Of a stretch of 40,452 nt of DNA, positions 1,700 through 26,876 are shown in pieces. Where the stretch lies: the IMG/VR virus record IMGVR_UViG_3300038701_001255, positions 1 through 40,452 of that record; one strand, written 5' to 3'. Every line of letters begins with the position of its first letter. Positions within the stretch are counted from its first letter, which is position 1. The DNA is from a virus. The translations under genes and the position numbers were made by a program. A model generated the notes under the pieces. It saw nothing but the letters and a program-made list of their open reading frames with translations, searched no databases and was not told where the DNA came from.

Positions 1700-2053
1700 C
1701 TAACCTTCTACGTTTGCGTTCTCTACTAGAGTGATCGCTGAAGTCCAAGTACCTGAAGTAATCTTAATGCCAACCGCAGAGTAACCAGTTGAGAATGTAG
1801 ATACGATGAAGTCAGCTGTATAAGCATCACCGTCCTGTGTAAGGCTTGAAAAATCGCCTTCAGTCTCGATTTGGTTCTTGTCAATCAGGCTCACGAAAAC
1901 AGCAGCTTCTGCTGCTCCACCGCCAGTCTCAATACCCTGAATGTTGATTTGAGCATTACGTGGTACAAGGTAAATAACTTCATTACCTGTAGTAAGCGAT
2001 GTATCTGTACGACCTCTTCCGTTACGACTAAGGTCTACTACCGTTACTGCCAT
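1700..2053 (-). CDS. Hypothetical small virion-type protein between TerL and portal (117 aa)
   Basis: The ATG at 2053 overlaps the TerL stop (TAATG), implying translational coupling. The protein (MAVTVVDLSRNG...) is rich in Thr, Ser, Gly and Val with little charge, and reads like a single beta-sandwich domain without signal or membrane segment. Its stop is four bases before the portal ATG. A decoration or head-completion role is possible from position and composition only. I do not recognise a family. Confidence 0.75.
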   Translation of the reverse strand: MAVTVVDLSRNGRGRTDTSLTTGNEVIYLVPRNAQINIQGIETGGGAAEAAVFVSLIDKNQIETEGDFSSLTQDGDAYTADFIVSTFSTGYSAVGIKITSGTWTSAITLVENANVEG

Positions 2054-4560
2054 TATACTGTCTCCCAACTTCCTTTATCTGTTGTAAAATCGTCCCAAAA
2101 TCTTCGAGCAATACCCCTCTTAGATTTAGCAACCTTCATTCCACTCTCAACACCATATCTCATAGTATCCATAAAGTGGTCGTGTTTATCTTTAGGTTTC
2201 CCCTTATCATCATAAGCGTACATCCTAAACTCTGATAGCCAACCGGCTAAGTCATCAAATACTTTTAATCGACCTTCTCGCATCATCTCAAGAATCAAAA
2301 TGATTCCATTCTGCTTATAACTTCGGTCTGCTGCCCTTATACGTAGACCTGCTTCTTTATACCTCTGAACCATACTCTTACCGTCAGATTGCCCAGCTTG
2401 CGTACCGCCGTAAGGGTCAACTACGCCTTGCATCCAATCACCACCTAGTTGGTTGATGTATTCAGCATGTGATTTAGGGGTTCGTTCTTTCTGAGAGTAT
2501 TCTTTGGTGATGTAGAGAATGTCTTTCTCTGGGTCATAGGCAAAGAACAATGCCACGGTTGGGTCTGGGTTCCACCCGAAGTCCATAGCATAGAATTGCT
2601 TGAAATGGTCGGGGATAGGGAATCTTTCTACGAGAATCTGGCTTTCAGCGATTGGATATACCATACCTTCACCAATCGAAGGAATACCTTTAGCACGGGC
2701 TTCCTTCTGGTGGTCTGGGGTTTGATCTTCGAGTTGTTGCTTCTCTTTATCTGAGAGGTGGTCTGCATCCATCCAAGATGCCATAACCAACACTCTACCC
2801 TTCTCAACAACACCCTCGGCCTCACTATCCCAGAAGTATCTAACCATATCTGTCATACCGGAAAGAGGGGTCATGGTGAGGAGCATTATCCCCTCTTCAC
2901 TTCCAGCAGCAGCTGTCAAGCGAATCATACACTCGGAGTAGATGTCGAAAGGAGGTTCCTCATCGAGGTGGATGACTTGACGTTTTGTACCCTGAAACTT
3001 GTTACGACCCTGCTCATAAGATTTGAACGTGAGTTCGCTGTAGCCTCCGGAAACATGTTTAACTCTAACTGTGTCAAGGGCGTTAGCAATACCTTGACGA
3101 CGTGTAAACCCTTCAATACAATCCTTAGGGATTGTGCCTGTACCAAAGTCCTCATCTGAAATACCACCCATGTACGTAACTTGTAGAATGTCACGTGTGG
3201 CTTCTGTTGAGTCTGTGGCTGCCCAAGCGGCAACAGGCTTCTTAAATCTCTTCCCTTCCCACCAATCAGGATAGAGTCCTGTGAGGTGGTAGGTGGTTTC
3301 CATACAACCAGACCAAGTCTTACCTGTATTACTAGAGACATATCCGTTGGCAATGAAAAGGTGGTCTTTGTGAGCAACTGTAATACAGTAGATGTCGAAA
3401 GATTCTGCTTTTTCTACTTTAGTTTTTACAGTTTTATATTTTTCAACCTGCCTGTCGTTTCCTCTTAGTTTTAGAGGTTTTGTAGGAACATCACCTATTT
3501 TTAAGACGTTGCTATCACCACTAACAGAAATTACGATCTCATCCCGATGTTTTGGATTTTTTCGCTCTCTAGTGCTTTTTGTACTGTAAGCCCCTAAACG
3601 CAGACAAGCAAGACGGAAAGTGTGGGCTAGTTTAGGTGATGTTGTAGAAAAGCAAATACGACCTTCTCTCATATACCCATCAGAAGCAACCAAACCTTTA
3701 ACAACTTCTCCTACAACTGAACTCTTTAAGAGTTTCTCTGGTATGAATTTTTCGTTTGAACGGAGCCCATATACACCTAACTCTCTCAGGAGATTGGTGA
3801 ATGGATTCTGACCTTTCTTGGCATCTTTTTTAGAAAGGTGTAAGTCATAATACGTGCCGTAGTCTCTAATTTTAGGTGTACAACCTAAAGACTCTGCGGC
3901 TTCCTTACATAAGTTAATGATCTCTAAACTTTTGTTTGTAATCTTCGGCGAGCTGTTTATATCTGTAGAGCAACCATCTCCTAAGTACATTCCTAAAAGG
4001 AATCCGACTTCTTTAGAGAAATCTTCGTTTTGGTCTTCCAGGTTCCATTTCGAAGGAACTACTATCTGCGTCCAAGGTTTAAAATCTTCAGCTTTTTGTT
4101 TAGATACTACACCTCTTTGACTTTTTGTCAGGAAAGGGTGGTCGTGCGTAACACTAATCTCTTCAGTGGAACGACCTGCTTTTAGTGTGAGGTTGTTATC
4201 ACTAAATCCTTTGAATGTATCGATCACAGGAGTTTCAACTAAGCTGTCAGACTCAATATCATACCCTAGAACAATCTCACCTACTTTAATGTCTTCGATG
4301 TTCTTCTCTGCGCCATCAGCCATCCAAACTTTAGTCCCAGCAGCGTAACAGCGGTTTCCGGCTAAAAACAGCCTTTGTCTGGCTGAAGCACCTAGCTTAT
4401 GGAATAAAGCTTGCTTTTTGTGTGGCTTATATAGACTAAGTTGATTGTTCTTCTTCGCCGCTATCGCAGAGCTCAACGTCGATAACTTCTCCGGAGGCAG
4501 ATTCTTCAATGCCTCTGCCAAAGTCTGGATTTGCTTCGAGGAGATTTTTTGCGAGCTCAT
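2053..4560 (-). CDS. terL: Terminase large subunit (TerL) interrupted by an intein
   Basis: This is the packaging ATPase/nuclease. With the ATG at 4560 the precursor is 835 aa; removing the 341-aa intein leaves a 494-aa TerL, a normal length. The extein halves meet inside the Walker A loop: FLAGNR before the intein and TGKTWSG after, giving AGNRTGKT. Walker B is VIHLDEEP. The nuclease domain shows FYAMDFGWNPDP, a DPYGG stretch and a final HDHFMDTMRYG. The start is uncertain: an in-frame ATG lies at 4578, neither has a clear ribosome site, and the 4560 start lies 125 bp inside TerS, so translation is probably coupled. Confidence 0.95.
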   Translation of the reverse strand: MSSQKISSKQIQTLAEALKNLPPEKLSTLSSAIAAKKNNQLSLYKPHKKQALFHKLGASARQRLFLAGNRCYAAGTKVWMADGAEKNIEDIKVGEIVLGYDIESDSLVETPVIDTFKGFSDNNLTLKAGRSTEEISVTHDHPFLTKSQRGVVSKQKAEDFKPWTQIVVPSKWNLEDQNEDFSKEVGFLLGMYLGDGCSTDINSSPKITNKSLEIINLCKEAAESLGCTPKIRDYGTYYDLHLSKKDAKKGQNPFTNLLRELGVYGLRSNEKFIPEKLLKSSVVGEVVKGLVASDGYMREGRICFSTTSPKLAHTFRLACLRLGAYSTKSTRERKNPKHRDEIVISVSGDSNVLKIGDVPTKPLKLRGNDRQVEKYKTVKTKVEKAESFDIYCITVAHKDHLFIANGYVSSNTGKTWSGCMETTYHLTGLYPDWWEGKRFKKPVAAWAATDSTEATRDILQVTYMGGISDEDFGTGTIPKDCIEGFTRRQGIANALDTVRVKHVSGGYSELTFKSYEQGRNKFQGTKRQVIHLDEEPPFDIYSECMIRLTAAAGSEEGIMLLTMTPLSGMTDMVRYFWDSEAEGVVEKGRVLVMASWMDADHLSDKEKQQLEDQTPDHQKEARAKGIPSIGEGMVYPIAESQILVERFPIPDHFKQFYAMDFGWNPDPTVALFFAYDPEKDILYITKEYSQKERTPKSHAEYINQLGGDWMQGVVDPYGGTQAGQSDGKSMVQRYKEAGLRIRAADRSYKQNGIILILEMMREGRLKVFDDLAGWLSEFRMYAYDDKGKPKDKHDHFMDTMRYGVESGMKVAKSKRGIARRFWDDFTTDKGSWETV
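3328..4350 (-). mobile_element. Intein with LAGLIDADG homing endonuclease inside TerL
   Basis: The 341-residue in-frame insertion starts with Cys (CYAAGTKVWMADG, block A). Block B is ISVTHDHPFLT (TxxH). Two LAGLIDADG helices follow, LLGMYLGDG and VKGLVASDGYM, each with its acidic residue, so the endonuclease may be active. Block F is FDIYCITVAHKDHLFIANG. The C-terminus is YVSSN with Thr as first C-extein residue; the usual penultimate His is Ser. Excision rejoins AGNR to TGKT in the P-loop, a favoured intein site in ATPases. TerL cannot function unless splicing occurs. Confidence 0.95.
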
Positions 4561-4951
4561 TAAAATCAATGTCCACATTCGTGTTGGTCGTGTTGATATT
4601 CAGCTCTTTAGGGAGAATATTACCAACTCTACTCAATACACTGTCAGCCGCTGCTTTGCGCATTCTGATGTCGGCTTTTGGATTTGACATGATTTCCTGA
4701 AGAACTTCTATGGCGAGAGGAGCTAGACGAGCTTCCTGTAATACCGCCTCATGTGCAATTTGTAATGTCTTCTCTTTTAGAAGAGCTTGCACTTCGTCTG
4801 TTTTTTTAAGCTTGTGTGCTGCGGCTAGAGTGCCTTTATTACTGGCTCCGCCTGCGTCTACATAAGCTTGCGTTAGGGTTTTTCCCGTGACAATCGCCTC
4901 AGCGAATGCCTCACGGCTAATCTTCGATTTTCTTTTTTGCAACTCGTACAC
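4436..4951 (-). CDS. terS: Terminase small subunit (TerS)
   Basis: The 171-aa protein lies directly upstream of TerL. The N-terminal 60 residues look like a helix-turn-helix DNA-recognition domain (REAFAEAIVTGKTLTQAYVDAGG), followed by a helical oligomerisation region and a very acidic tail, the pattern of small terminases that recognise the packaging site. No ATG fits. GTG 4951 gives the longest frame, while TTG 4942 is better spaced from a TACAGG ribosome site and would give 168 aa. It overlaps the upstream gene by about 30 bp and TerL by about 125 bp. Confidence 0.8.
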   Translation of the reverse strand: MYELQKRKSKISREAFAEAIVTGKTLTQAYVDAGGASNKGTLAAAHKLKKTDEVQALLKEKTLQIAHEAVLQEARLAPLAIEVLQEIMSNPKADIRMRKAAADSVLSRVGNILPKELNINTTNTNVDIDFNELAKNLLEANPDFGRGIEESASGEVIDVELCDSGEEEQST

Positions 4952-5669: not shown

Positions 5670-5698
5670 TTGACAGACCTGAAAAAGTATGTTACCCT
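5670..5698 (+). promoter_or_regulatory. Promoter of the 5.7-6.0 kb non-coding RNA
   Basis: TTGACA (5670-5675), 17-bp spacer, TACCCT (5693-5698) with TGT before it. The -10 box is weak against TATAAT but identical to that of the leftward promoter at 17752-17779. No ORF begins in the following 390 bases. Confidence 0.6.
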
Positions 5699-6027
5699 GA
5701 GTCTCGACGAGGACGCCGAGCCTCGATGAGGGTGACTCACGTGAGTGATGTCATTTATTTCCCTCCCTCACTCGGGTGACCAGCGGCCAAGGAGAGACTC
5801 TAAGCAAGCTATGCTTGCGTCATGCCAGAGGCGTAGCCGAAAGCATGCCCCTGCTCCCCAAAGAGCATAGGGGCTTGATGCTTGAGGTGCTTACGCCCTT
5901 GTGTTAGAATAACACTAGGCATGTCCTACATCCCTAAAGATGTATAGGACTAATGCCTGTGTGTTTAATGTATATTATATTTAATAAATAGAGAATTATA
6001 TTCTTTAGGGAATATATTCTCTTTTTT
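5699..6027 (+). ncRNA. Candidate structured RNA of about 325 nt
   Basis: This is a string of hairpins between a promoter and a terminator with no credible ORF. Helices seen: 5699-5705 with 5794-5800 (7 bp), 5804-5809 with 5813-5818 (GCAAGC/GCTTGC), CATGC 5821-5825 with 5843-5847, CCCCT 5848-5852 with its partner near 5869-5873 enclosing GCTC/GAGC, GTGTTA/TAACAC 5901-5915, and AGGCAT 5917-5922 with ATGCCT 5953-5958 enclosing GTCCTA/TAGGAC. A pyrimidine stretch with CCCTCCC is at 5761-5767. It ends at the terminator at 5991-6027. The exact 5' end is uncertain. Confidence 0.6.
5991..6027 (+). terminator. Intrinsic terminator of the 5.7-6.0 kb RNA
   Basis: GAGAA and TATATTC on the left pair with GAATATA and TTCTC on the right, with one bulged base on the left arm, followed by six T (6022-6027). 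It separates the RNA from the 6095 operon. Confidence 0.75.
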
Positions 6028-6037
6028 ATTTGTATGT

Positions 6038-6094: not shown

Positions 6095-6367
6095 ATGTCA
6101 GACATTAATTACAGAATTTACAGGCGAGACTCTTTGAATTATGCACTTCAGGTAAATGAGCCTATAGAGTATAACGATGTACGTACAGGAGAACGTAAAA
6201 CGTCCAAGAAAATGAGAGACGTCGGATATTATCCAAATCCTCTTGCTGCATACGAAGCTTACGTTAAGCGATATGCTTTACAACAAGCCTCTAATTACGA
6301 GGATTTAAAACAACTCCTCACAAAAGTTATGGAAAGAATTGAGAAGGAAGTGTTGAATGATGTCTAA
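6095..6367 (+). CDS. Hypothetical protein (90 aa), first gene of the 6-8.5 kb operon
   Basis: The ATG at 6095 follows AAAGGAGA. The protein is charged and soluble (MSDINYRIYRRDSLNYALQ...), with a helical C-terminal half. The last codons overlap the next gene by 11 bp. I do not recognise a family. Promoter proximity suggests early expression. Confidence 0.75.
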   Translation: MSDINYRIYRRDSLNYALQVNEPIEYNDVRTGERKTSKKMRDVGYYPNPLAAYEAYVKRYALQQASNYEDLKQLLTKVMERIEKEVLNDV

Positions 6368-8509: not shown

Positions 8510-8633
8510 ATCGTCGCCCTGACAATGGCTCCTCGCCGAAGGCGGGGGCTATGTCTAGGCGCCCCGAAGGCGCAAATCAATAATTACGCCCTAGCGTAAT
8601 ATCTTATCCTTTACGCTCCAGCGTAACATAAAG
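8510..8633 (+). other. Hairpin-rich 3' region after the ligase gene
   Basis: No ORF is seen. Successive small inverted repeats occur: ATGGCTCC...GGGGGCTAT around 8525-8553, GCGCC/GGCGC around 8560-8574, ATTACGC/GCGTAAT around 8583-8600, and TTACGCT/AGCGTAA around 8611-8626. None has a T tract, so they are probably mRNA 3' structures rather than terminators. Confidence 0.5.
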
Positions 8634-8675
8634 AGAGCCCGAGTTCCTCCCAAAAGGAACAGAGGCTCTTTTCTT
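8634..8675 (+). terminator. Intrinsic terminator 1 of the 6.1-8.5 kb operon
   Basis: AGAGCC (8634-8639) pairs with GGCTCT (8664-8669), with an inner GTTCC/GGAAC stem, followed by a T-rich stretch TTTTCTT. Confidence 0.8.
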
Positions 8676-8686
8676 ATATATACATA

Positions 8687-8714
8687 AGCTCCTCCCAGTG
8701 AGGGGCTCTTTTTT
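8687..8714 (+). terminator. Intrinsic terminator 2 (tandem)
   Basis: AGCTCCTC (8687-8694) pairs with GAGGGGCT (8700-8707) with one G-U pair and a 5-base loop, followed by C and six T. With the preceding terminator it closes the rightward operon tightly. Confidence 0.85.
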
Positions 8715-9290
8715 ATTTCCGCCCCTTTGTGAGTCGTCCCGTTAGGAAACGAATCACAAATAATTAGGGGGGGGTACTTCGTTTACACTCGTAGGCGAAT
8801 CGAAAATCGCTCCGCATTTGAGAGATAGTCCTCGTAGGACGAGTGAAAAATAAACTCCGTCTTATTTTGAGGGACAGACCACCAACCTTCCCACCACGTA
8901 CGGCGAAGATGCCGACGACCAAAGGTGGGGGGGGGGTTAGGTCGTTACACTCCTCCACTATGGCCTTATGGCCTCTCTATGGCATCATAGAATGATTTCT
9001 TGATGCTCTGAGCTACGTAGGTAGCTCTTACATACATAAAAGCCTTTAAATGGCTTTATATTAATGATAAATATAGTGTCCCACTTTGGTACACATATTA
9101 ATAAGATAAGGCACACATATTGTGTGTATTGTATACGGCGATGAAAGAGGCGCTACACCATCATAGATGATTATAGCCCCTTTATAATAGAACTTTATGA
9201 TTTGTTGTCCGTTCCGTTGGTACGGCAACGCTTACAATGCCTTAACAGCCTTTTACGGGCTGAAAGGCTTAAAGGATTAAACAAACAAAA
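8715..9290. other. Gene-free region dense in inverted repeats with two G tracts
   Basis: About 575 bp without a credible ORF. Inverted repeats include a 12-position arm around 8728-8762 (TTTGTGA...TCACAAA with inner TCGT/ACGA), GTCCT/AGGAC near 8828-8840, CGGC/GCCG near 8901-8914, GGCC/GGCC near 8963-8974, GAGCTAC/GTAGCTC around 9010-9027, AAAGCC/GGCTTT around 9040-9058 and CACACA/TGTGTG around 9112-9126. G tracts of 8 (8767-8774) and 10 (8927-8936) are present; the latter can pair with a nearby CCCACC stretch. No TTGACA box was found. It may be an RNA, a packaging or replication site, or a decayed region. Confidence 0.45.
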
Positions 9291-9309
9291 GAGGCACTTG
9301 GTGTGCCTC
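9291..9309 (-). terminator. Terminator of the leftward early cluster
   Basis: GAGGCAC (9291-9297) and GTGCCTC (9303-9309) form a perfect 7-bp stem. Read leftward it is followed by TTTTGTTTGTTT. It lies about 25 bp past the last leftward gene. Confidence 0.75.
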
Positions 9310-9335
9310 CTGTTTGTAATATATTTTATGATTAT

Positions 9336-9596
9336 TTAAACGGCGTATCTTGGGTAGATAACGCCGCCTTTAATGACTGGTGTGTAATCTTCGTTTTGTA
9401 AATCTTGTAATTCATAAAAACCCGTGTCCATCGCAACACCGTCATTCTCTGAAAGAGCAACCAACGGCAAGCCTTCAATATTGTAAGCAATGACCTCAAA
9501 GCCATTGACCTTTTCATCAAGTGGTTTGGCCTTGCTTTCGTTCATATCTCTTTTTACTTTAATAAAAAGTTCTTTTTGTGCTGTAAGTTTGGTCAT
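9336..9596 (-). CDS. Hypothetical protein (86 aa), last gene of the leftward early cluster
   Basis: The ATG at 9596 follows AAAGGA and lies about 25 bp from the predicted start of its own promoter (9628-9656). The protein is soluble (MTKLTAQKELFIKVKRDMNES...), helical at the N-terminus and beta-rich after, with no recognised motif. A dedicated promoter suggests separate regulation from the rest of the cluster. Confidence 0.75.
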   Translation of the reverse strand: MTKLTAQKELFIKVKRDMNESKAKPLDEKVNGFEVIAYNIEGLPLVALSENDGVAMDTGFYELQDLQNEDYTPVIKGGVIYPRYAV

Positions 9597-17570: not shown

Positions 17571-17596
17571 TTGTTCTTGTTTTTATATAAGAACAA
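17571..17596 (-). promoter_or_regulatory. Inverted repeat in the leftward leader
   Basis: TTGTTCTT (17571-17578) and AAGAACAA (17589-17596), 8-bp perfect arms with a 10-base gap, overlap the -10 box of the proximal promoter. It could be an operator or a leader hairpin. Confidence 0.5.
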
Positions 17597-17622
17597 TAAC
17601 AAACCAATTCAACCTATGTCAA
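17593..17622 (-). promoter_or_regulatory. Possible proximal leftward promoter
   Basis: TTGACA (17622-17617), 18-bp spacer, TATTGT (17598-17593). The -10 box is weaker than those of other promoters here. Confidence 0.45.
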
Positions 17623-17683
17623 ATAAAAAAATAATAAAATTCTTTCAAAGAGAATTTTTATTTATTTTTGTTTATATTATATA

Positions 17684-17724
17684 AGAGATATATTATTTAT
17701 TTTATTATAAATAAATATATCTCT
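17684..17724. repeat. AT-only inverted repeat
   Basis: AGAGATATAT (17684-17693) and ATATATCTCT (17715-17724) form a perfect 10-bp arm pair that can extend through TTATTTA/TAAATAA with one bulge. The surrounding 130 bp is very AT-rich. It lies in the leader of the distal leftward promoter and could be a regulatory or unwinding site. Confidence 0.5.
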
Positions 17725-17725
17725 A

Positions 17726-17745
17726 TACAAACACTCCGTGTTTGT
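17726..17745 (-). promoter_or_regulatory. Inverted repeat at the distal leftward start
   Basis: ACAAACAC and GTGTTTGT form an 8-bp perfect arm pair with a 3-base loop, at the predicted start of the 17752-17779 promoter. Operator or 5' hairpin. Confidence 0.5.
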
Positions 17746-17751
17746 CTTTAA

Positions 17752-17779
17752 AGGGTAGCACATTTTTCCAGAATGTCAA
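17752..17779 (-). promoter_or_regulatory. Distal leftward promoter with TACCCT -10
   Basis: TTGACA (17779-17774), 16-bp spacer, TACCCT (17757-17752) with TGC before it. The spacer shares a CTGGAAAAA-like tract and the same -10 with the 5670-5698 promoter. Confidence 0.6.
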
Positions 17780-17823
17780 TACCTAAATTGTAAATAATTT
17801 CATAATTATTTTAACTAAAGGGG

Positions 17824-17852
17824 TTGACAGAGTGTAAGTGGTGGAGTATATT
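17824..17852 (+). promoter_or_regulatory. Promoter of the large non-coding RNA
   Basis: TTGACA (17824-17829), 17-bp spacer, TATATT (17847-17852). Predicted start near 17859. It is followed by the structured RNA and its terminator. Confidence 0.8.
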
Positions 17853-17858
17853 AACACT

Positions 17859-18410
17859 CAAGAGTTTAAGTCTTACGGCTCTTAATTATTTGGAAATGCC
17901 TGTTTAAAAGGATTTTTATGTACGATTCGAGATGTGTGAGTTCAAGCATTGTTCGAGGATTGTGTATGAGTATCTGGGATAGGCCAACGATATTGCTAAA
18001 GCAATAGGCAGGCATTCCTTAATTTTGTAAGACTAGAGCTTTTAGAGAGGGTGCGAGTGCTGAAAGGTGCAGAGTAATTAACTGTAATACCAGCGGAGAA
18101 GCCTCACACTACAGGTAGTAATGTTTCGAATCAACCTAGAGAAACATAAGACGCCTGTACTGTGGACACGTACTAGGTTGTATGTACTTCGAGTAGGGTT
18201 ACGTCCTGCCACCCTCTTTAAGAGTTTTTAATTGGGCTCATTGCGTGCAGTGAACCTAGTTAAGAGTTTCCAGCAGCATAGAGGAACCTATCCTTGTTGT
18301 TAGTAGTAGCGGAGCGAAATGATGTTGCTGTTCCGCAAGGCAATAACCTCCTACAAACATTGCCAGCCATGTAAGTCCAGCCCTCAGAATTGTCTGGGGG
18401 CTTTTTATTT
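17859..18410 (+). ncRNA. Large structured non-coding RNA (about 550 nt)
   Basis: No credible long ORF fills this stretch, yet helices are abundant: 17892-17901 with 18009-18018 (long range); TATTGC/GCAATA 17991-18006; a long-range helix of about 17 bp, 18036-18053 with 18210-18227, enclosing CAACCTAG/CTAGGTTG 18132-18139 with 18173-18180; a 16-position hairpin 18228-18243 with 18248-18263 (15 paired, loop CGTG); 18266-18271 with 18283-18287; GCGGA/TCCGC 18309-18336; GGCAAT/ATTGCC 18339-18364 whose 14-base loop holds ACCTCCT. It ends at the terminator at 18379-18410. Size and ornate fold recall ROOL or GOLLD phage RNAs; identity unproven. Confidence 0.75.
18379..18410 (+). terminator. Intrinsic terminator of the large RNA
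   Basis: AGCCCTCAGA (18379-18388) pairs with TCTGGGGGCT (18393-18402) with one U-G pair and loop ATTG, followed by TTTTT and further T-rich sequence. Confidence 0.9.
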
Positions 18411-18421
18411 GTGTTTAGGGG

Positions 18422-18450
18422 TTGACAAACCATTCTACATGTGCCACATT
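18422..18450 (+). promoter_or_regulatory. Promoter of the rightward replication operon
   Basis: TTGACA (18422-18427). At 17-bp spacing the -10 would be CACATT preceded by TGC; TATATT at 18450-18455 is a better box but at 22 bp. The -35 lies in a GGTT...AACC symmetry. The perfect -35 and position right after the terminator support a promoter; the -10 is uncertain. Confidence 0.6.
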
Positions 18451-18472
18451 ATATTCAACGAAAGGAATAATA

Positions 18473-18724
18473 ATGACAACAAAACAACATGAAACTGTTT
18501 ACCAAGCTGAAAATTATACAGCTTATGTTCGAGGTACAGCACAAATTCATCGAGACGAGGATATCAATCAATGTAATGTTGATTGTGATATTGAGGAGAT
18601 TGAAGTGGTGGATGATGAGCTCGGAGAGAGAAGCTACTATCCAGACGTATCTTCTTTTGTAGAAGATTTCTCTCAAGAAGACTTCGATATGATTTACACA
18701 CAATTCTGGGAGGAAGTGGTATGA
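18473..18724 (+). CDS. Hypothetical acidic protein (83 aa), first replication-operon gene
   Basis: The ATG at 18473 follows AAAGGA; an upstream in-frame TTG coincides with the -35 box and is rejected. The protein is strongly acidic (DIEEIEVVDDELGE, FVEDFSQEDFDMIY), which can indicate a DNA-mimic or regulatory protein, but no family is recognised. Its stop overlaps the helicase ATG. Confidence 0.7.
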   Translation: MTTKQHETVYQAENYTAYVRGTAQIHRDEDINQCNVDCDIEEIEVVDDELGERSYYPDVSSFVEDFSQEDFDMIYTQFWEEVV

Positions 18725-19938
18725 TTGAACAACAAATTATCAAGCACATGCTTGACAAATCCAACTTCGACGAATATGGGGAGTCGATTAAAGAGGAGCA
18801 CATCCCTACACAAGTGATGTGGAAAATCTTTACACGTCTACGAGATTACTACTTGAACAACACAGACCCTCTCAGCTTGGATGACCTCAAGGCAATCCAT
18901 CTTGCTGAGATGGCTGGTATTCACATTAACAAGAAGCAGGAGTTTGAAAAAGCCTATGAAGACATTGCTGAAACAGATGTATCGCAAGCATGTGAAGAGC
19001 TGGTTCGAACAGCTCGTCGGAACGCTTTGCTTTTCGATGCTCAAGACGCTATTGACAGTGGTCAGTTGGTACGAGCGACGGAACTGCTCCAGAAAGCTGA
19101 GGAAGTAGACCAAGATGAAATCACTGAGTTTGACCAATATAGATTGACAGAACTCCAAGATGATATTGATGGGAATAACAGATGGAAATGGGCTATTCCA
19201 GAACTAGAGGAATATCTAGACGGGTTCGGTGCTGAACGTAGTGTTTTAGTATATGCTAGGCCAAATAGTGGCAAAACTTCTTTCATTAGTTACAATGTTG
19301 TGAATATGATGCGCCAAGGTGCTAAACTCCTCCACTTCTCTATCTCAGAGGATACGAAAGTGGCATTAGTAAAACGCTACTACCAAGCAGCTTATCACAA
19401 GAAAGATGAAGTGATTGAAGCAAACATGGAAAAGGCTTCAGATGCTTTTGAGAGAGACTTCGGCGGTAAGTTCTTCCTAAAGAACGTAGCAACACTGACA
19501 TTGAAACAGGCACGAGAATACATTGAGGCTTGTCGTCCTGATATTGTTGTCTTTGACCAATACCAGAAGGTGAAGGTGTACCACGACCAAGAAGCACGCA
19601 GTGATGAAGTACTGACACTCGTAGTCCAGAAACTTAAAGAGCTTGCTAAGGAGTTTCAGTTCGGACTCATTCTAGCCACACAAGCAGACGCTAAAGCGGA
19701 GAATAAGAAGTGGCTTGGTATGGACAATGTAGCCGGAAGTAAGACTGGTGTAGCCGGCGAGCTCCAAGCTATGATCGGGATTGGTAAGGATAATGCTGAG
19801 GGAGAACGTACTGTCTATCGTGATGATGGCACCACTGTATCAGCCTCTCCTCGATATATCAATATTCCTAAGAACAAAGGGAGTATGGGACAGATGAAAA
19901 TCAACTTAGTAGGAGATGTATGCGAATGGGTATCCTGA
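18721..19938 (+). CDS. Replicative DNA helicase, DnaB/T7 gp4-helicase type
   Basis: 405 aa, RecA-fold ATPase. The N-terminal 130 residues are helical, as in DnaB. Walker A is ARPNSGKTSF at residues 179-188. Walker B is IVVFDQYQKV, and a later MDNVAGSKTGVAGELQAMIGIGK segment matches the DnaB-family sensor/arginine-finger region. No primase domain is fused; the primase is the separate leftward gene at 16240-17076. It begins ATGA, overlapping the preceding stop, and its end overlaps the exonuclease gene. Confidence 0.9.
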   Translation: MIEQQIIKHMLDKSNFDEYGESIKEEHIPTQVMWKIFTRLRDYYLNNTDPLSLDDLKAIHLAEMAGIHINKKQEFEKAYEDIAETDVSQACEELVRTARRNALLFDAQDAIDSGQLVRATELLQKAEEVDQDEITEFDQYRLTELQDDIDGNNRWKWAIPELEEYLDGFGAERSVLVYARPNSGKTSFISYNVVNMMRQGAKLLHFSISEDTKVALVKRYYQAAYHKKDEVIEANMEKASDAFERDFGGKFFLKNVATLTLKQAREYIEACRPDIVVFDQYQKVKVYHDQEARSDEVLTLVVQKLKELAKEFQFGLILATQADAKAENKKWLGMDNVAGSKTGVAGELQAMIGIGKDNAEGERTVYRDDGTTVSASPRYINIPKNKGSMGQMKINLVGDVCEWVS

Positions 19939-20486
19939 CGGATAAGAAAGAGCTTATCTTCGACTTAGAGTGTACATTCTCCTATAGAGATAAGATGGTG
20001 AAAGGGAAGCCAAAGCCTGTATCAGATTATGCCTCTCCTTTCAACGACAACAACAGAATCGTGTGTATGGGCATGTATGCTGAAGACCTTGGCTACAAAC
20101 TATTCGACTTTGACAGAGGAGATAAGATAGAAGATGCGTTCGCTATTTTTGATGATTATCCTTTATTGGTTGGTCATAATGTTAAGTATGATGTTCATTG
20201 GCTTCGTAGTGTGGGATACGACACAAGAAAGCACACCCTCATTGACACACTCATCACGGAGTATGTCATCAACGGAGGAAAGCTTACATATGGACAGCTT
20301 GGACTAGACAAGCTTGCTCCTCAGTATGGTGGAACGAATAAGATTGACATTATCAAGAAACAATGGAATGCTGGAATCAATACGGACGAAATAACAAAAT
20401 ATGTCTTACATGAGTATCTTTATTATGATGTACTGAATACGTGGAAGATTAGGCAAGGACAGAAGGAGAAACTTAATGTTCAATAA
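19920..20486 (+). CDS. DNA polymerase 3'-5' exonuclease (proofreading) subunit
   Basis: 188-aa DnaQ/RNase H-fold exonuclease. Exo I is LIFDLECTF (Asp15, Glu17), Exo II LLVGHNVKYDVHWLRS, Exo III YLYYDVLNTW. It corresponds to the exonuclease domain normally fused to phage family A polymerase, but here stands alone; the polymerase part starts at 21004. Two small genes lie between them. ATG 19920 follows AGGAG; a second in-frame ATG is at 19926. Confidence 0.9.
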   Translation: MRMGILTDKKELIFDLECTFSYRDKMVKGKPKPVSDYASPFNDNNRIVCMGMYAEDLGYKLFDFDRGDKIEDAFAIFDDYPLLVGHNVKYDVHWLRSVGYDTRKHTLIDTLITEYVINGGKLTYGQLGLDKLAPQYGGTNKIDIIKKQWNAGINTDEITKYVLHEYLYYDVLNTWKIRQGQKEKLNVQ

Positions 20487-20838: not shown

Positions 20839-21007
20839 GGAAATACTGAAATCATATCTAAACAGTATGTTAATGGATATTATTGACGAATCTCAACAGT
20901 ACTTATCAGAGGATGAATATACAATGTATAGCCCTATAGATGTAGCAACAGATAGGTTTATTGATATGGTCATCCGTATCGTAGAAAACAAGGAGCTTTT
21001 GAAATGA
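20831..21007 (+). CDS. Hypothetical acidic small protein inserted before the polymerase (58 aa)
   Basis: ATG 20831 overlaps the previous stop and its TGA overlaps the polymerase ATG (ATGA). The product (MDKEILKSYLNSMLMDIIDE...) is helical and acidic. Seamless coupling on both sides shows a translated gene. With the 20476 gene it splits the polymerase operon. Function unknown. Confidence 0.7.
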   Translation: MDKEILKSYLNSMLMDIIDESQQYLSEDEYTMYSPIDVATDRFIDMVIRIVENKELLK

Positions 21008-22524
21008 AGTGGTCTCATAGAATGTTAGCATTCAATACACGTCTCAACTCCGTTACAGAGGAGATGGAGTTTAATGGTGTACAGGTTGACCAAGAAGTAG
21101 CGAAGGAAATATTCGCCGAACTACAGAAAATGAAAGAGGAAGCAGAAGCGACTCTCTACTCTCTAATTATTAAAAACACTCCAGATGATTTTGACGATAG
21201 TAAGCTTAATCTAGGCAGCCCTGTTCAGATGGCTGAGTTATTATACTCACACAAGTTCAAGGATAGTCTGAAGGACGATAAAGGGAAAGTGGTACATTCC
21301 TTCAAGAAGGAGTGGAGCAGCTTTATGTCTACATTCTCAAGTAGACGTAGAGGTGCTATAAGTGAATTCCAACAGATGGTGGAGAAGTGTTTCGACAAAC
21401 TCGACTATGGATTTAACATCAAACCCAACCCAGAGTTCTCAGGTAAAGGCGGTTTCGGAGCAGGGAAGGCTGTGATCGAAGCCCTACTTGGTGATGAAAA
21501 GCTATCTAAAAAAGCTAGAGCTTTTGCAGAAGCTTATACATCTCTGAGTAAGATTAACACATGGATTGACCTTTCATACTGGCAGATCATGTCTAATGTA
21601 TCTCCTGACGGGAAAGTTCATGGGAGCTTTGTTCAAGCCGGCACGGCTTCAGGACGTTACAGCTCTAGCTCCCCTAATATGCAGAACCTCCCAAGTAAGG
21701 ATAAGAATGAAGGTAAGAACCGAGTAAGAGAACTTATCTGTTCGAGATGGGGAGATCAAGGATGCATCCTAGCCCCTGACTTCTCTCAGCTTGAGATTCG
21801 TATTCTTATGGAACTGTGTAAATCTAAACAAGGTATTGAAGATTTCAATAACGGGATGGACATTCACACAGCTACAGCAACAGACTCTGCCAACTTTTAT
21901 TACGGAGCAGGTACGTGGGACAGTTGGGATGAAGCAAAGCAGAAGGCTTGGCGTTCAGGACAGAAGACAGTCAACTTTGGTCTCATCTACGGGGCTATGC
22001 CAAAGAACGAACTGGAGCAAGCACAGTATGACGGTTTCATGACACGCTATAAAGAAGTGTTGCCTTGGAATGAGCAAGTGTTTGCACAAGTAGAAAAGTT
22101 TGGATACTATGAATGTCCAATGACTGGATTCAGATATAATCTATCTGGAGCCACACACTCCAACTTCAAACGAGGCTATGACAGCCAAGGAAGAGGCTGG
22201 AGAAACAAAGCACTCAACTACCCTGTACAAGGTACAGCCGGTAGAGTGGTGCAAGCGTCTATGATTGGAATCTATGATGATATTGTCTTTGACGATAAGA
22301 TTAAGTTCGTAGGACAAGTACATGATGAAAATTTATTAGATGTTCACCTCTCAGCACTTGACAGAGCTATTGAGGTGTGTTATAAAAATATGGAAGGTGT
22401 CCAAGAGGTGTTTAAACGATACTTCGGATATTCAATAGAGGTTCCTCTAGCAGTTGATATGGAAGCAGGGTACAACTGGTTCGATGTCATGGAAGTGGAT
22501 AAATTTAAAGAGAAAGTGAGATAA
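21004..22524 (+). CDS. DNA polymerase, family A, polymerase subunit
   Basis: 506 aa. Motif A is LAPDFSQLEIRIL (Asp259), motif B RSGQKTVNFGLIYG (Arg317, Lys321), motif C GQVHDENLLDV (His440-Asp441-Glu442), with TASGRYSSSSPNMQNLPS before motif A as in other pol I enzymes. It lacks a fused exonuclease, which is the separate gene at 19920. The start ATGA overlaps the preceding stop. It replicates the phage genome; SSB, 5' nuclease and helicase are encoded alongside. Confidence 0.95.
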   Translation: MKWSHRMLAFNTRLNSVTEEMEFNGVQVDQEVAKEIFAELQKMKEEAEATLYSLIIKNTPDDFDDSKLNLGSPVQMAELLYSHKFKDSLKDDKGKVVHSFKKEWSSFMSTFSSRRRGAISEFQQMVEKCFDKLDYGFNIKPNPEFSGKGGFGAGKAVIEALLGDEKLSKKARAFAEAYTSLSKINTWIDLSYWQIMSNVSPDGKVHGSFVQAGTASGRYSSSSPNMQNLPSKDKNEGKNRVRELICSRWGDQGCILAPDFSQLEIRILMELCKSKQGIEDFNNGMDIHTATATDSANFYYGAGTWDSWDEAKQKAWRSGQKTVNFGLIYGAMPKNELEQAQYDGFMTRYKEVLPWNEQVFAQVEKFGYYECPMTGFRYNLSGATHSNFKRGYDSQGRGWRNKALNYPVQGTAGRVVQASMIGIYDDIVFDDKIKFVGQVHDENLLDVHLSALDRAIEVCYKNMEGVQEVFKRYFGYSIEVPLAVDMEAGYNWFDVMEVDKFKEKVR

Positions 22525-26309: not shown

Positions 26310-26775
26310 ATTAGAAGCACTATCAGTATTTCACAACGCTTTTGGAATTAAGAAGCCTAATAAAATGGACACCCAAGAGTACAGTGACTTCCTAGCCCTT
26401 CGTACCTCCCTCCTTAAAGAGGAGTACGAAGAGGGTCGGGACGCAATGGTGAGTATTCAAGCAACTCTGTCAGAAGGGATGTCTCCTACCCTCGAACAGA
26501 AAGCAGAATTGCTTGATGCTTACACAGATATGTTGTACATCATCTACGGTACGGCAGACCTCCTAGATATTAACATTGATGCAGCATTTGCTGAAGTACA
26601 TGCTTCTAATATGTCAAAACTTGATGAGAATGGTAACCCCATCATCAACGGTGAGAACGGTGTATTGGATGAGACGCGCCCTCTAGGGAAAGTGTTGAAG
26701 TCTGATAAGTTTCGAGAACCAGAACTCAAACAATTCGTTATTGATAAGATCGAACAGACGGAACTTGACATTTAA
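26302..26775 (+). CDS. MazG-like nucleotide pyrophosphohydrolase
   Basis: 157 aa. LLKEEYEEGRDA supplies the EExxE metal motif and ELLDAYTDMLYIIYGTADLL the second (E/D)xxD motif of all-alpha NTP pyrophosphohydrolases. HASNMSKLDENGNPI and GKVLKSDKFREPEL resemble phage PRA-PH/MazG-like proteins. Such enzymes hydrolyse non-canonical or signalling nucleotides. It is the last rightward gene, and its final codons contain a consensus promoter. Confidence 0.8.
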   Translation: MNKLEALSVFHNAFGIKKPNKMDTQEYSDFLALRTSLLKEEYEEGRDAMVSIQATLSEGMSPTLEQKAELLDAYTDMLYIIYGTADLLDINIDAAFAEVHASNMSKLDENGNPIINGENGVLDETRPLGKVLKSDKFREPELKQFVIDKIEQTELDI

Positions 26776-26793
26776 GAATAAATGTGTTATAAT
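26765..26793 (+). promoter_or_regulatory. Perfect consensus sigma-70 promoter at the end of the MazG-like gene
   Basis: TTGACA (26765-26770), 17-bp spacer, TATAAT (26788-26793), with TGT before the -10: both boxes exact. The -35 overlaps the stop codon. The next rightward element is a terminator, not a gene. Confidence 0.85.
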
Positions 26794-26796
26794 ATT

Positions 26797-26850
26797 GCCT
26801 CCCATCTCTAGGTAAAAGAAAAGGACTCTATAAAGAGTCCTTTCTTCTGT
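26797..26850 (+). ncRNA. Candidate very short phage RNA (about 50 nt)
   Basis: Predicted from the consensus promoter at 26765-26793 and the terminator at 26820-26848. It would start in or near CCTCCC (26798-26803), followed by a short linker and the terminator hairpin. No ORF fits. The promoter may instead serve only to read through the terminator, or the two may be coincidental neighbours. Confidence 0.5.
26820..26848. terminator. Bidirectional terminator between convergent operons
   Basis: AAAGGACTCT (26820-26829) pairs with AGAGTCCTTT (26834-26843), 10 bp, loop ATAA. T-rich sequence follows on both strands (TTTCTT rightward; TTTTCTTTT leftward), so it can end both the replication and the late transcripts. 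Confidence 0.85.
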
Positions 26851-26876
26851 CATAACCCTGACAGAGGGAGACGCAA

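Follow-up and report, generated by a model that had tools for sequence, protein, structure and literature searches.

What does the stretch between the two divergent operons of this virus encode? The window, i.e. the whole 40,452-base virus record that was analysed, is a podovirus-like genome (Table 1). Positions 17824-18410 lie between the leftward small-gene operon and the rightward replication operon, exactly as a preceding sequence-only reading had placed them. That reading had proposed a large structured non-coding RNA, pointing to ROOL and GOLLD as the known phage RNAs of this size. The large structured RNA itself is well supported by a promoter and terminator of its own and by the folding statistics, whereas kinship with ROOL or GOLLD was not borne out by any model match.

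Table 1. Predicted elements of the RNA unit and its surroundings (positions refer to the window)
Feature	Position	Strand	Remarks
Promoter of the RNA unit, sigma70-type	17824-17852	+	TTGACA-N17-TATATT; 11/12 consensus match
Predicted non-coding transcript, ~550 nt	17858-18408	+	start inferred from promoter, end from terminator
Domain 1	17868-18034	+	closing helix, further helix, 14-bp arm, hairpin; z -4.0 alone
Domain 1 closing helix	17869-17876/18027-18034	+	p about 0.5
Domain 1 helix	17892-17904/18007-18018	+	
Domain 1 arm, 14 bp	17915-17928/17957-17970	+	
Domain 1 hairpin	17991-18006	+	
Domain 2	18036-18227	+	closing helix around multibranch junction
Domain 2 closing helix, 16-18 bp	18036-18053/18210-18227	+	p 0.97
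Near-perfect hairpin	18226-18265	+	17 pairs (11 + 6), one mismatch
3' region, three small hairpins	18266-18378	+	z -1.3 alone, not significant
14-nt loop AACCUCCUACAAAC	18345-18358	+	unpaired probability 0.99
Intrinsic terminator	18379-18402	+	10-bp stem, 4-nt loop, U tail; stem -16.5 kcal/mol
Second promoter-like element	18422-18455	+	AGGGGTTGACA ... TG-C-CACATT (or TATATT, 22-nt spacing); before rightward operon
Rightward replication operon	from 18467	+	DnaB-like helicase, split family A DNA polymerase, 5'-3' exonuclease
DnaB-like helicase gene	18721-19938	+	gene 2 of rightward operon; phrog_19, E 5e-42
Leftward small-gene operon	from about 17600	-	
Promoter-like site of the divergent small-gene operon	17593-17622	-	TTGACA-18-TATTGT; further TTGACA at 17779
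SU10-type adaptor, major head protein, tail and lysozyme-domain genes	right half	leftward	
Terminase gene	left	leftward	
Second ncRNA-like unit	5670-6032	+	TTGACA-N17-TACCCT; structured part 5702-6032; strong terminator

The promoter and the strong terminator described in the sequence-only reading are both present at the ends of the unit. Sites matching the promoter consensus at 11/12 or better number only eight in the whole window, this one among them. The 11-mer AGGGGTTGACA is common to the RNA promoter and to the element at 18422, whose TTGACA, ahead of the rightward operon, has only weak -10 options. The reported absence of a long ORF also held: the longest ATG-started + strand ORF wholly inside the interval comprises 36 aa, and a 29-aa ORF at 17918-18007, preceded by AAAGGA, had a codon score of -0.32 (mean 0.34 and minimum 0.04 for 22 genes of the same genome). 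Codon statistics looked non-coding from about 17600 to 18450; in the reading frame of the following gene, codon scores are clearly above zero from 18451 onwards. Six-frame translations of the interval with stops masked matched no PHROG, and the idea of a pseudogene was rejected on this ground.

As a + strand RNA, 555 nt of the interval folded with -181 kcal/mol (z -4.48; 0 of 100 shuffles as stable). A repeat fold of 17858-18408 gave z -5.6, or -4.3 without the terminator, and none of 100-120 shuffles was as stable as the + strand RNA. The complement folded only weakly by comparison, scoring about -1.7 where the + strand reached -5.1 on the same scale; thus, the signal lies at the RNA level on the + strand. 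The mean for 80 other 555-nt segments of the genome was -1.6 (sd 1.7), and the few that were equally extreme overlap other non-coding stretches. Domain 2 plus the hairpin following it (18036-18265) gave z -4.9 alone, and the long-range 16-bp helix was equalled in 0 to 1 of 120 shuffles. The interval fits the kind of large structured phage ncRNAs in having its own promoter and terminator without an ORF, and in a fold of the predicted transcribed strand that is more stable than chance would give (z -4.5 to -5.6).

The helices named in the sequence-only reading had pairing probabilities of about 0.7 to 0.99. One of them, drawn as 17892-17901/18009-18018, is thermodynamically supported but does not consist of ten straight pairs: 17892-17895 pairs with 18015-18018 and 17897-17904 with 18007-18014, leaving A17896 bulged. 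The helix of about 17 bp closing domain 2 was recovered, with 16 to 18 pairs, and the hairpin placed at 18228-18263 is nearly perfect with its one mismatch, the extent now being 18226-18265. Pairing of 17872-17880 with 18365-18375 competes with the closing helix of domain 1; the strand 17869-17876 forms that helix and the one closing the entire molecule (with 18365-18375) with about equal probability.

Homologues in related phages, on which the sequence-only reading had counted for covariation, were found neither in phages and plasmids nor in about 400 alphaproteobacterial genomes and 292 viral or prophage loci. Blastn of the RNA gave no match in phage and plasmid records (collections that may omit close neighbours of the window), in 18 genomes from the order that hosts several related prophages, or in 385 genomes of the alphaproteobacterial class. 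Nor was the RNA found in TerL-related viral records or, by nhmmer, in the 292 loci (3.2 Mb). A single-sequence covariance model of domain 2 found only the window and had no hit in the 18 same-order genomes, and an exact 23-mer from the hairpin did not occur in IMG/VR. Related loci were likewise not found through the helicase or the polymerase as single proteins. Alignment of the helicase against IMG/VR yielded at least 80 loci, with at most 33% identity among the matches listed, and an exact search of the IMG/VR loci returned for the helicase motif YARPNSGKT[ST]F was negative. Because the helicase has no relative above 33% among the matches listed, the missing RNA homologues reflect an isolated replication module as much as the RNA.

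Searches with TerL gave 47% at best until the IMG/VR phage G059 (57-59%), the nearest relative found, whose virion genes are syntenic at about 30-57% identity. The early region of G059 is different, and its whole genome contains no such RNA. In the related IMG/VR record of 39,909 bases (L343/L344), the virion genes are syntenic but the early region is unrelated and carries DNA methylases and a ResIII/DEAD-type helicase, a pattern of modules exchanged among phages that share one virion lineage.

Rfam covariance models gave no credible match to the interval at gathering or at E = 10. Four weak matches to other families (E 3.3 and above) were far under the gathering scores, and no model matched for 6S, tmRNA, RNase P, group I/II introns, HEARO, OLE and so on. 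Neither the ROOL (RF03087) nor the GOLLD (RF02032) model matched even at E = 10, the conserved 3' region of GOLLD included. The absence of tRNAs remarked on in the sequence-only reading was confirmed with ARAGORN, which found none in the 40,452 bases; the tRNA context of ROOL and the tRNA island of GOLLD are thus missing as well, and both were rejected as families. ROOL is an octameric RNA-only nanocage. The RNA described here resembles it in being phage-encoded, several hundred nt long and rich in helices, with loops that might contact each other, but phage ROOL often lies near tRNA islands. With GOLLD it shares phage origin, large size and a function that is not known, although about 550 nt contrasts with over 800 nt in many GOLLD members (PMC12286853). 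The functions of ROOL and GOLLD are themselves not known (PMC12286853), and resemblance to them would therefore give no mechanism. Among published RNAs, the nearest in kind is the ~800-nt ncRNA between gp139 and gp140 of the Vibrio phage ICP1, which by RNA-seq is the most abundant ICP1 transcript (PMC7567579). It too is large, ORF-less, of a tRNA-free phage and without known function (PMC7567579), but it was demonstrated by RNA-seq, whereas the RNA here is predicted from sequence, and blastn against the phage collection revealed no sequence kinship.

For a unit that has its own promoter and terminator, is structured strand-specifically and does not code for protein, an RNA gene is the simplest reading. 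Thus, 17824-18408 is probably a functional stand-alone phage ncRNA gene of an orphan family, with a probability of about 0.65, a figure that does not extend to either partner considered below for its loops. Host RNA polymerase would start at the strong consensus promoter, probably at an early stage of infection, and would stop at the intrinsic terminator just before the replication operon. The RNA of ~550 nt is predicted to fold into two stable multibranched domains and a long hairpin, in agreement with the folding statistics, and would most likely accumulate stably and act in trans, alone or with a protein. The same layout of the unit at 5670-6032, in the other divergent gap, speaks for an RNA gene. 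Against it stand the lack of any homologue found, the absence of the RNA from G059, although the whole early region differs there, and the 3' part at 18266-18378, which is not unusually structured.

A trans-acting RNA is favoured over a leader or attenuator and over a replication primer. As a regulatory leader of the rightward replication operon, the transcript would end at 18402 except where a factor of the phage or its host permitted read-through. The leaders of lambda 6S and HK022 put have this layout of promoter, structured RNA and terminator directly before a same-direction operon. The terminator here occupies that very position, the -10 element of the promoter that follows is poor, and the unit at 5670-6032 shares the arrangement. 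However, the RNA is much longer than these leaders, and the rightward operon has a -35 element of its own (TTGACA at 18422). The best pairing to either terminator arm was equalled in 21 of 40 and 30 of 40 shuffles; terminator arms without antiterminator pairing beyond chance point to a finished transcript rather than an attenuator, leaving room for protein-mediated read-through. Moreover, 500 nt of domain structure exceeds what any cis antiterminator is known to require. A leader is unlikely on balance, while deserving to be kept in view. The transcript might instead be tied to replication, the RNA or an R-loop priming or opening an origin in the AT-rich divergent region in the manner of ColE1 RNA II. 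An AT-rich inverted-repeat region (17580-17820) adjoins the RNA promoter, the cumulative GC skew changes direction near 18 kb and the unit adjoins the replication genes; yet the skew turn follows gene orientation, a limited look identified no iterons or initiator gene, and the RNA ends at a terminator. We consider this role very improbable.

The stretch might also have no function, being a decayed gene or a spacer with fortuitous structure. The failure to find a homologue in phage, plasmid, genome and viral-locus searches would fit such a fate, but strand-specific z values of -4 to -5.6, promoter and terminator in register and six-frame translations matching no PHROG argue otherwise, and we regard it as improbable. 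That the RNA is a highly divergent ROOL or GOLLD would agree with a size near that of ROOL, the phage location, the complex fold and the complementary loops; against the missing match at E = 10 and the lack of tRNAs in the window, this carries next to no weight. Antisense action on phage genes was rejected, as matches reached 11 bases at most, plausibly no more than composition-driven background in an informal comparison.

For the RNA gene as the preferred reading, two loops offer leads to partners. Every base of the loop UAGGUU (18174-18179) could pair with AACCUA (18133-18138) inside the 13-nt loop 18128-18140; an equally good loop-loop complement was present in 18 of 160 shuffles, and a contact between the two is a long shot, to be taken as a lead only. 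The 14-nt loop at 18345-18358 has ACCUCCU in common with the 3' tail of 16S rRNA, and ribosome-binding sites of the form AGGA to AGGAGG precede many genes of this phage. Pairing of this anti-Shine-Dalgarno-like loop with such sites is an equally speculative lead, the likeness having been spotted after the fact.

The second unit (5670-6032) is hairpin-rich and ORF-less, with a fold z of -7.5. It occupies the other divergent intergenic gap, where the terminator is followed by a TTGACA and then by a gene at 6095. Neither Rfam nor a blastn search of phages gave a match to it, and it showed no significant sequence similarity to 17858-18408. It is doubtful whether 17858-18408 and 5702-6032 both belong to a class of structured RNAs not described before, placed between divergent operons with a promoter and terminator each, that would assemble or act as RNA machines during infection and possibly engage ribosome-binding sites via the anti-Shine-Dalgarno-like loop.

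Large structured phage RNAs are few, namely ROOL, GOLLD and the ICP1 RNA. If the RNA gene is real, a further unrelated RNA with no tRNA link beside a replication operon would suggest that RNAs of this sort have originated in phages more than once, and it would be a compact, clearly delimited object on which expression, removal and structure could be tested. A relative with the same virion genes and without the RNA would tie the RNA to the early or replication module and not to the particle.

The virion relatives comprise a Megaira polyxenophila phage, loci in alphaproteobacterial and other proteobacterial MAGs, and G059, which suggests an alphaproteobacterial host. Several of the MAGs with related virion loci belong to one order and have genomes of only about 0.9 to 2.0 Mb. 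Further features of the window were recorded. The family A DNA polymerase is split into a 3'-5' exonuclease part (19920-20486) and a polymerase part (21004-22524, + strand) with small genes between them. The terminase large subunit (2053-4578, - strand) contains an intein with a LAGLIDADG homing endonuclease at about residues 77-415, inserted at Walker A; at 512 aa, the G059 TerL has no room for such an intein. A hairpin-rich non-coding stretch with several terminator-like stems and G runs follows the ligase operon (8510-9340). At the end of the rightward operon (26765-26860, + strand), a perfect 12/12 promoter, TTGACA-17-TATAAT, faces a strong hairpin between convergent operons and possibly gives rise to a short RNA.
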